Shown in pieces: positions 23,213-24,607 of a DNA stretch of 40,748 nucleotides. The DNA is from Paracoccaceae bacterium (GTDB lineage Bacteria; Pseudomonadota; Alphaproteobacteria; Rhodobacterales; Rhodobacteraceae): positions 1 through 40,748 of the forward strand of contig JAIOXV010000009.1 in assembly GCA_021741465.1 (NCBI GenBank). Direction: 5' to 3'. A program made the position numbers and the translations under genes. The notes beneath the pieces are model-generated. The model was not told where the DNA came from, did no database searches, and saw nothing but the letters and a program-made list of their open reading frames with translations. Each line of letters begins with the position of its first letter. Position 1 is the first letter of the stretch.

Positions 23213-23392
23213 TTAGTCTTGGCCAGTGTAATAGCCATACATCGCCGCCAACGCCTCTTGCCCGGCTGAAAGCTTTGGCAAGGAACCGTGCTGAGGTACA
23301 GCGCAGTTGGGGCTGGCATTGTAATAGGTAAGGCCGGGAACTTCAGCCAAGATCTTGCAAGGCTTGGCGGAGAACTGGGTAAGACTGGTCAT
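23213..23392 (-). CDS. Small 59-aa protein, not in the ORF track
   Basis: The frame from ATG 23392 to TAA 23213 encodes 59 aa beginning MTSLTQFSAKPCKILAEVPG and ending YGYYTGQD. AAGGA lies seven bases before the ATG, ideal spacing. Codon use is GC-rich at third positions like its neighbours. There is no signal peptide or membrane segment; two cysteines lie at residues 12 and 30. The frame sits alone between the GLFG/His-rich gene and nfuA on the same strand, with 100 bases to nfuA. I do not recognise a family; its good ribosome binding site and uninterrupted, protein-like composition support it as a real gene. Confidence 0.7.
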   Translation of the reverse strand: MTSLTQFSAKPCKILAEVPGLTYYNASPNCAVPQHGSLPKLSAGQEALAAMYGYYTGQD

Positions 23393-23510: not shown

Positions 23511-23543
23511 AAAGGCCGGGCAGCCATTACTTGCCCGGCCTTT
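23511..23543 (-). terminator. Strong rho-independent-like terminator after the GLFG/His-rich gene
   Basis: AAAGGCCGGGCA and TGCCCGGCCTTT form a perfect 12-bp stem with a nine-base loop, starting 18 bases after the stop codon. On the minus strand it is followed by TGCTCTTTTG. It insulates the GLFG/His-rich gene from the 59-aa gene. Confidence 0.8.
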
Positions 23544-23561: not shown

Positions 23562-24446
23562 TCAGCAGAAATCAAAGTCGTGATGACCGTGGTGGTCGTC
23601 TTCTTCGTGGTCATCCCAGCGGTCATCATCATGACCGTGGTCAAACGACAGAAAACCACCCATCAGCGATTTGAAGAAGTCTGCGGCATGATCCCCGCAG
23701 GCATGACCATGATCGCCAGAGTCATCATGGCTGGCGTGGTCATCATCATTGGAATGATGATCGCCGCCATTGCTGCTGCAATTGTTGGCACTGTCGTCAT
23801 CTGCATCGCCGTCATTTTCCTCGTCCGGACCATCCGTCGGGCCATCTTCTTCCATGCCGGTGAAATTGTAGTAGGTTTCACTGCCCGAAGCCGTCGTGAT
23901 CGTCGCCTTGACGATCACATCCTTGGGATCGACATCGGGATTGTCGGTTGCCACCTGATCCCGCGCCTTGGCGAGGTAATCTTCGAACGTGTTCGTATCG
24001 CTGTCGCGTCCGACCGGAATGTAATTGTCCATCGCCCCGTCAGCGTCATAGTCAACGTGAAAGGTGATGCCTGCAGTGTCTGACGGAATGTCGGGCCAGC
24101 CGGTGCCCTGAACCGCCCCACCGGAACCGCCGCCAGAACCCGAACCTGCGCCGCCGTCAGAGCCATGGCCATGACCCGCGTCGTGATCGTCATCGGTGTC
24201 GCAATCCTTGCCACCGCCGATGTTGCCGAAGAGGCCGCCGCCCGCATGGCCACCAAACAGCACGCCGCCAGAGTGCCCGCCAAACAGCCCACCGCCAGTA
24301 TGCCCACCAAACAGCCCGCCCCCAGTCTGGCCACCAAACAGCCCACCGGATGTGTGGCTGTCATGCCCACCGCCGAGAAGTCCGCCGTTTCCAAACAGGT
24401 TCGGCAGTTTTCCAAAACTGCCGAAAGATTTCAGTCCAAATGTCAT
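23562..24446 (-). CDS. GLFG-repeat, His/Asp-rich protein of unknown function
   Basis: Protein of 294 aa from ATG 24446 (AGGG seven bases upstream; the track uses a GTG two codons earlier). Residues 16-80 are a nine-residue repeat around GGLFGGH, giving several GLFG motifs. Residues 81-112 are Asp/His then Gly/Ser rich. Residues 117-200 look like a small folded domain with a calcium-loop-like motif, DYDADGAMD (132-140), and FEDYLAKARDQV. Residues 200-294 are very acidic and His rich (DHGHDDDRWDDHEEDDHHGHHDF) with a hydrophobic patch ADFFKSLMGGFLSF and a final Cys. No signal peptide is visible. The composition suggests divalent-metal binding and low-complexity self-association; type I export is possible but not shown. 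I do not recognise a family. Confidence 0.75.
   Translation of the reverse strand: MTFGLKSFGSFGKLPNLFGNGGLLGGGHDSHTSGGLFGGQTGGGLFGGHTGGGLFGGHSGGVLFGGHAGGGLFGNIGGGKDCDTDDDHDAGHGHGSDGGAGSGSGGGSGGAVQGTGWPDIPSDTAGITFHVDYDADGAMDNYIPVGRDSDTNTFEDYLAKARDQVATDNPDVDPKDVIVKATITTASGSETYYNFTGMEEDGPTDGPDEENDGDADDDSANNCSSNGGDHHSNDDDHASHDDSGDHGHACGDHAADFFKSLMGGFLSFDHGHDDDRWDDHEEDDHHGHHDFDFC
24223..24357 (-). repeat. Five-copy 27-bp in-frame tandem repeat
   Basis: Four clear 27-base units (24250-24357, core CCACCAAACAGCCC on the plus strand) and one degenerate unit (24223-24249) encode the nine-residue GLFGGH repeats of the gene above. Unit length is a multiple of three, so copy-number change would keep the frame. 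Confidence 0.85.
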
Positions 24447-24553
24447 TTTCACACCCTATAGATGAAGTGCCCCCGCTTCACCCTTGGGGTGGCTGCCCGA
24501 AAATTGCCACAAAATAGACCTAAACAAACTGTTACCAAGCTGGAACCAATTGC

Positions 24554-24575
24554 CAAATACGGAGCCATGTATTTG
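24554..24575. promoter_or_regulatory. 7-bp inverted repeat in an AT-rich intergenic block
   Basis: CAAATAC and GTATTTG are separated by eight bases. The surrounding 24500-24600 stretch is clearly AT-richer than the rest of the window and lies upstream of the GLFG/His-rich gene and just after the universal stress protein gene. A possible -35/-10 pair on the minus strand (TTGGCA, 16 bases, TAACAG) overlaps its left arm. It is a candidate operator/promoter region for the GLFG gene. Confidence 0.4.
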
Positions 24576-24607
24576 TAATTAATATAATTTCCATCATGGC
24601 ATGACTG

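Follow-up and report, generated by a model that had tools for sequence, protein, structure and literature searches.

The BapA protein of Paracoccus denitrificans is an extremely Asp-rich, predicted substrate of a type I secretion system (T1SS) that is needed for biofilm formation, and the biofilm of this species is stimulated by added Ca2+ (PMC5588039). Low-complexity regions rich in His and Asp have been linked to Ni/Co-binding proteins in prokaryotes (PMC6821194). The FG domains of Nup98 span 500-700 residues, contain about one FG motif per 12 residues, and are under selection against His and negative charge (PMC9918544). An engineered repeat from Tetrahymena MacNup98, GGLFGGNTQPAT, phase-separates at 52 repeats to give an FG phase (PMC8245513). 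The gene described here comes from the metagenome-assembled genome of a Paracoccaceae bacterium and lies in a 40,748-nucleotide stretch of contig JAIOXV010000009.1 (assembly GCA_021741465.1), hereafter called the window. The main general result of its analysis is a small module reused in RTX/Hint, pilus-associated TadG-like and small acidic proteins of a single family, the Rhodobacteraceae, which connects two surface systems of that family.

The coding frame occupies 23562..24452 on the reverse strand, as do all of the protein features below, and encodes 296 amino acids from a GTG at 24452 or 294 from an ATG at 24446, with the stop at 23562. The parts that a sequence-only reading had listed (nine-residue GLFG repeats, a Gly/Ser linker, a compact domain with a DxDxDG motif and a His-rich acidic tail) are all present in the translation. 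An N-terminal FG-rich segment (residues 1-34; 24351..24452) that lacks any hydrophobic, signal peptide-like stretch is followed by five tandem nonapeptides of the form GGLFGGxxG (residues 35-79; 24216..24350), identified by repeat detection and translation. The translation continues with an Asp/His patch and then the Gly/Ser linker (residues 82-116; 24105..24209). Next is the conserved central module (residues ~117-204; 23841..24104), recognized from profile comparisons and a predicted beta-beta-alpha-beta-beta model, within which the module alignment places a DxDxDGxxD loop, a candidate Ca2+ site, at residues 134-142 (24027..24053). The acidic, His-rich tail (residues 205-296; 23565..23840) is defined by composition and homologue alignment; its 92 residues include 26 Asp, 4 Glu and 14 His with only 2 Lys or Arg, as well as an ADFFxSLxGGxxSFD patch common to a homologue from the same genus. 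Across the whole protein, acidic residues exceed basic residues by 46.

The signals flanking the gene agree with those proposed earlier. The strong terminator is an intrinsic-terminator-like hairpin directly past the stop codon (23511..23543), found by hairpin search and folding (13-bp stem, z = -3.0), and the separate AT-rich upstream region is an intergenic stretch (24500..24599) with a GC content of 34%, versus 49-70% for most of the surroundings. The promoter search upstream returned a single promoter-like site (24611-24584, reverse strand) that is no better than chance, and an Rfam search around the gene locus gave no match.

The gene had been called an orphan, a description that must be dropped because homologues occupy the syntenic position in two other genomes and many further proteins carry the module. 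The full-length homologue in a genome of the same genus (G003) is 54% identical; that of G179, from another genus, is more distant, with 43% identity in the domain. Over the 88 central-domain codons, comparison with the G003 homologue yields dN 0.195 and dS 1.69, and the resulting dN/dS of ~0.12 shows, on codon comparison, that the frame is coding, which bears on whether it is translated. By the same measure purifying selection acts on the central domain and the flanks change fast, with dN of 0.57 and 0.55 for the N- and C-terminal parts. Such rapid change in low-complexity flanks, together with two congeners that have no copy of the gene, would fit a non-functional or non-coding frame produced by low-complexity DNA. 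However, the constraint on the central domain, the frames open in three species and the well-formed terminator all oppose this reading, which is already disfavoured and which we regard as extremely improbable. The gene is real, bacterial and lineage-restricted, with an unusual composition; tblastn against plasmids gave no match, and no relative was present in the viral contigs searched.

The order of genes in the window, G003 and G179 is branched-chain aminotransferase, usp, the gene and nfuA, all on one strand. In two other congeners (99-100% complete) the gene is absent and the usp-nfuA interval is just 413-439 bp, while elsewhere the interval contains a lipoprotein-like frame (G004) or an MFS-like frame (G043), as named from their translations. 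These two frames, which show that the cargo of the interval differs between genera, are located at L054 690-1745 and L056 3324-4634. Judged from these gene orders, the space between usp and nfuA is a variable slot, empty or otherwise filled in other Rhodobacteraceae, and consequently the neighbours of the gene tell little of its function. A 59-aa small frame is also present directly upstream of nfuA in the window (23213-23392, reverse strand; MTSLTQFSAKPCKILAEVPGLTYY...YGYYTGQD); similar frames occur in G001 (38%) and G003 (45%), and a Pfam search with it gave nothing above cut-off.

This genomic setting bears on the possibility that the protein is a cytoplasmic metal buffer or chaperone. Here the His/Asp tail would store Ni, Zn or Co, the module would serve as a scaffold, and the gene would lie beside, or work with, those for NfuA (an Fe-S carrier) and Usp. 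The usp-gene-nfuA order kept by both syntenic homologues is consistent with such a role, as are the lack of a signal peptide-like stretch and the enrichment of His/Asp-rich low-complexity regions in Ni/Co-binding proteins (PMC6821194). However, the interval is without the gene in the two nearly complete congeners and holds lipoprotein-like or MFS-like cargo elsewhere, so the neighbours are independent of the gene. Furthermore, the His content of the three homologues (7.8, 3.7 and 5.6%) is not conserved, and the remaining contexts of the module appear extracytoplasmic. A cytoplasmic buffer is consequently considered unlikely, although it deserves to be kept in mind.

Searches of the protein against Pfam, NCBIfam and PHROGs gave nothing credible, and Pfam searches with pieces of the protein gave no match at E values up to 10. 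A single-sequence search of 397 Rhodobacteraceae genomes gave a match in G043 at 8.7e-6, at a different locus, and a four-sequence profile found the module in 34 of the 397 genomes. Among 385 genomes sampled across the class, one genome matched besides that of the window. A weak match outside the family (L091; G493:C27:232000-248000; 21.8 bits) lies in a 4,272-codon RTX-rich frame. To guard against drift in the profile searches, the link between the small proteins and the larger hosts was tested without circularity, using an HMM constructed from RTX/Tad copies only, without the three low-complexity proteins and G043. With this HMM, all three low-complexity proteins score 18.9-19.6 bits, versus a best score of 8.2 in 2000 shuffles. 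An hhalign comparison of the 3-member clade with 26 RTX/Tad copies gave 96.8% probability (E 2.5e-10, 84 columns). The module alignment (A2) has 30 members, with a full-length profile match of ~88-93 positions, and the window protein matches over this full length by both the non-circular HMM and hhalign. These profile comparisons show homology between the central ~88 residues and the module of RTX/Hint and Tad/VWA proteins.

The Pfam contexts of the module are RTX (PF00353), Hint_2, Tad (PF13400) and VWA. RTX host proteins, several with Hint, are found at L011-L014, L020 and L021, and hosts with Tad and/or VWA that resemble TadG are found at 19 loci among L015-L036, five of which were assigned by Pfam and the remainder by a MIDAS-like DISGSM motif. 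One module copy (residues 11992-12080) is hosted by a 12,332-codon frame (L016, L088-L090; G068:C5:268000-326000) that contains RTX repeats and a matrixin-like C-terminal part, the latter match falling just under cut-off. In two further frames (L005, 742-1914; L037, 298-1293) the module follows another N-terminal domain of ~140 residues. This ~140-residue domain carries the motifs VEWDGA.KL....LG..GADK and LGVRATSTSTP.GSIK, and has no Pfam match. The positions of the module relative to the VWA domain suggest more than one insertion into TadG-like proteins, because it follows the MTDG motif of that domain in L032 and precedes the motif in most others. Module frames of TadG-like length are paired ~2 kb apart in G335:C1, G005:C11, G388:C73, G325:C25 and G266:C102. 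The module is absent from the libraries searched (Pfam, NCBIfam, PHROGs and PDB), and a literature search found no paper on a module of this kind in the TadG/VWA proteins of Rhodobacter.

Of the 30 module copies, 29 carry a DxDxDGxxD-like signature, among them that of the window, where the loop reads D134-Y-D136-A-D138-G-A-M-D142. The earlier suggestion of a metal-responsive protein is plausible on the strength of this signature and of the association between His/Asp-rich regions and Ni/Co-binding proteins (PMC6821194). At alignment positions 40, 42 and 67, Asp, Asp and Gly are the usual, though not invariant, residues of the module (27-28 of 30 copies). Because T40, E42 and K67 take their place in the window copy, this copy is, by alignment, a divergent branch of the module family. 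AlphaFold2 predicts a beta-beta-alpha-beta-beta arrangement from 3 sequences (pLDDT 77), and a weaker model of the G043 copy (pLDDT 62) has the same order of elements. Foldseek comparison of the first model with the PDB gave a best E of 0.17, none of the hits being significant. Sequence searches of the PDB with the single sequence and with the 30-member profile returned EF-hand loops, an S-layer protein and others, only at E >= 0.03, with the EF-hand matches confined to the loop. The best Pfam EF-hand match (EF-hand_5, E 0.057) is below cut-off and occurs in 3 of the 30 members.

The repeats upstream of the module are well defined. The 27-bp array that Tandem Repeats Finder places at 24235-24348 has 4.2 copies and a score of 144, and the translation contains five tandem 9-residue units resembling GGLFGGHTG, four with an exact GLFG (residues 37, 46, 55 and 73), while the fourth unit reads VLFG. 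Since the nine-residue period is identical to that of RTX repeats, and the module itself is present inside RTX proteins, the array might be a degenerate RTX array, its GGLFGGxxG units having arisen by decay of GGxGxDxLF calcium repeats. A survey of triple (L/F)FGG runs in 298 genomes of the family is in keeping with this idea, as the 15 genomes with matches comprise 8 with RTX-type arrays, 6 with other, mostly short frames, and the window gene. However, the window units lack Gly4 and Asp6. On an RTX matrix their consensus reaches -11 bits, versus 17.9 +/- 3.2 for true units, and 84% of its own permutations do equally well. PF00353 is unmatched even at E 10, and no units of the GGxGxDxUx type, and hence no RTX repeats, are present in the window protein. 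RTX decay is already disfavoured and appears very improbable.

The same survey carries a caution for the comparison with nucleoporins. Because most such (L/F)FGG runs in other genomes of Rhodobacteraceae are RTX repeats, a GLFG motif match alone is no sign of nucleoporin-like behaviour. The protein could nonetheless be an FG-type condensate former, with GLFG nonapeptides cohesive as in Nup98 and an acidic His tail that tunes the condensate with metal or pH. In its favour, the likeness to the engineered Tetrahymena repeat is striking, GGLFGGHT agreeing with that repeat at 7 of the first 8 residues, and all nine Phe in residues 1-80 precede Gly (9 FG versus 3.7 expected from shuffles, p = 1e-4). 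The enrichment extends to residues 1-27, outside the tandem array (p = 0.0016 by shuffling). Residues 1-81 are nearly uncharged (1 Asp and 3 Lys), and cohesion is known to rise with shorter spacers (PMC9918544). Although nine FG in ~81 residues equal the density of Nup98 domains, they fall well short of them in length, and Csat drops exponentially with repeat number (PMC9918544). Phase separation is lost when each repeat gains one Asp (PMC9918544), whereas the window protein has a large acidic excess, and the selection against charge and His seen in Nup98 is not reflected in a segment with 5 His joined to a strongly acidic remainder. The homologues weaken the case further, as the N-terminus of G003 is FG-rich yet charged (weak FG enrichment, p = 0.03) and that of G179 is not FG-rich, with enrichment absent. 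Neither the GLFG array nor the His-rich tail is, as such, conserved outside the window species, and on these comparisons the array is a species-specific, local decoration. Self-association via nucleoporin-like GLFG repeats, as first proposed, is therefore weakly supported, a condensate former of this kind is improbable, and the nucleoporin analogy is a motif-level likeness with a low probability of functional equivalence. The more elaborate proposal that an independently evolved GLFG cohesive segment, near-identical to Nup98 units, combines with a Ca2+-binding domain and a His/Asp tail into a metal-gated condensate or extracellular gel is remote.

The explanation we favour, tentatively, is that the protein is small, binds calcium or other metals and belongs to the cell surface or matrix, which it would probably reach by export without a signal peptide. 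This accessory protein would consist of a single surface-protein module copy between fast-evolving low-complexity segments. The DxDxDGxxD loop would bind Ca2+, and the Asp/His tail could add low-affinity binding of divalent metals (Ca, or Ni/Zn/Co via His), while the Gly/Phe segment might provide weak self-association. Export would proceed as for type I secretion substrates, and the protein may work as a metal-bridged part of the cell surface or biofilm matrix, as might be compared with the Asp-rich BapA. We infer export because of the module contexts, the lack of a signal peptide-like stretch, and the T1SS adaptors in the genome. The highest 17-residue hydropathy anywhere in the protein is 0.81, no strongly hydrophobic stretch occurs in any of the four short proteins examined, and the genome encodes HlyD-type T1SS adaptors above the TIGR01843 cut-off. 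An absent N-terminal signal peptide and a T1SS in the genome, both of which apply here, are necessary for a T1SS substrate and not specific to one, and none of the neighbouring genes examined was recognised as belonging to a T1SS. In TadG-like proteins a periplasmic location of the module is conceivable, and therefore shared contexts are no proof of export of the window protein. The cytoplasmic proteins encoded by usp and nfuA also count against a surface location. Further points against the favoured explanation are the missing RTX repeats, a loop that is not called as an EF-hand and the lack of a significant PDB fold match. The earlier proposal of a surface protein thus gains support from the recurrence of the module in RTX/Hint and Tad/VWA (TadG-like) proteins, with export as its conjectural part.

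Among described systems, the CdzC/D proteins of Caulobacter, T1SS-exported glycine-zipper proteins (PMC5380434), were dropped from the comparison, as they are hydrophobic, rich in Gly/Ala/Val/Ile and encoded beside their own exporter, whereas the window protein is acidic. The resemblance to Nup98 GLFG domains consists of the unit GGLFGG(H/N)T, the FG density and a charge-poor N-terminal segment (PMC8245513, PMC9918544), but the window protein has five units in place of tens, contains His and has strongly acidic partner segments, and its repeats are unconserved among homologues and without a Pfam match. BapA, compared here by description, shares with the window protein an origin in the Rhodobacteraceae, extreme Asp-rich low complexity and, if the favoured explanation holds, a predicted T1SS route with a calcium-related biofilm role. 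In contrast to the window protein, it has 2,211 residues with 891 Asp-Ala repeats and adjoins its T1SS genes (PMC5588039). The TadG-like Tad (PF13400) and VWA proteins (L015, L017, L024 and L032) are membrane-anchored and ~600-700 aa long, whereas the window protein has neither a Tad segment nor a VWA domain; the likeness is the module, which in these proteins lies inside or beside the VWA domain. Finally, the RTX/Hint_2 secreted proteins (PF00353 and PF13403; e.g., L011-L013) differ from the window protein in their many RTX repeats and Hint domain, and have in common with it a ~90-residue module with a DxDxDG loop.
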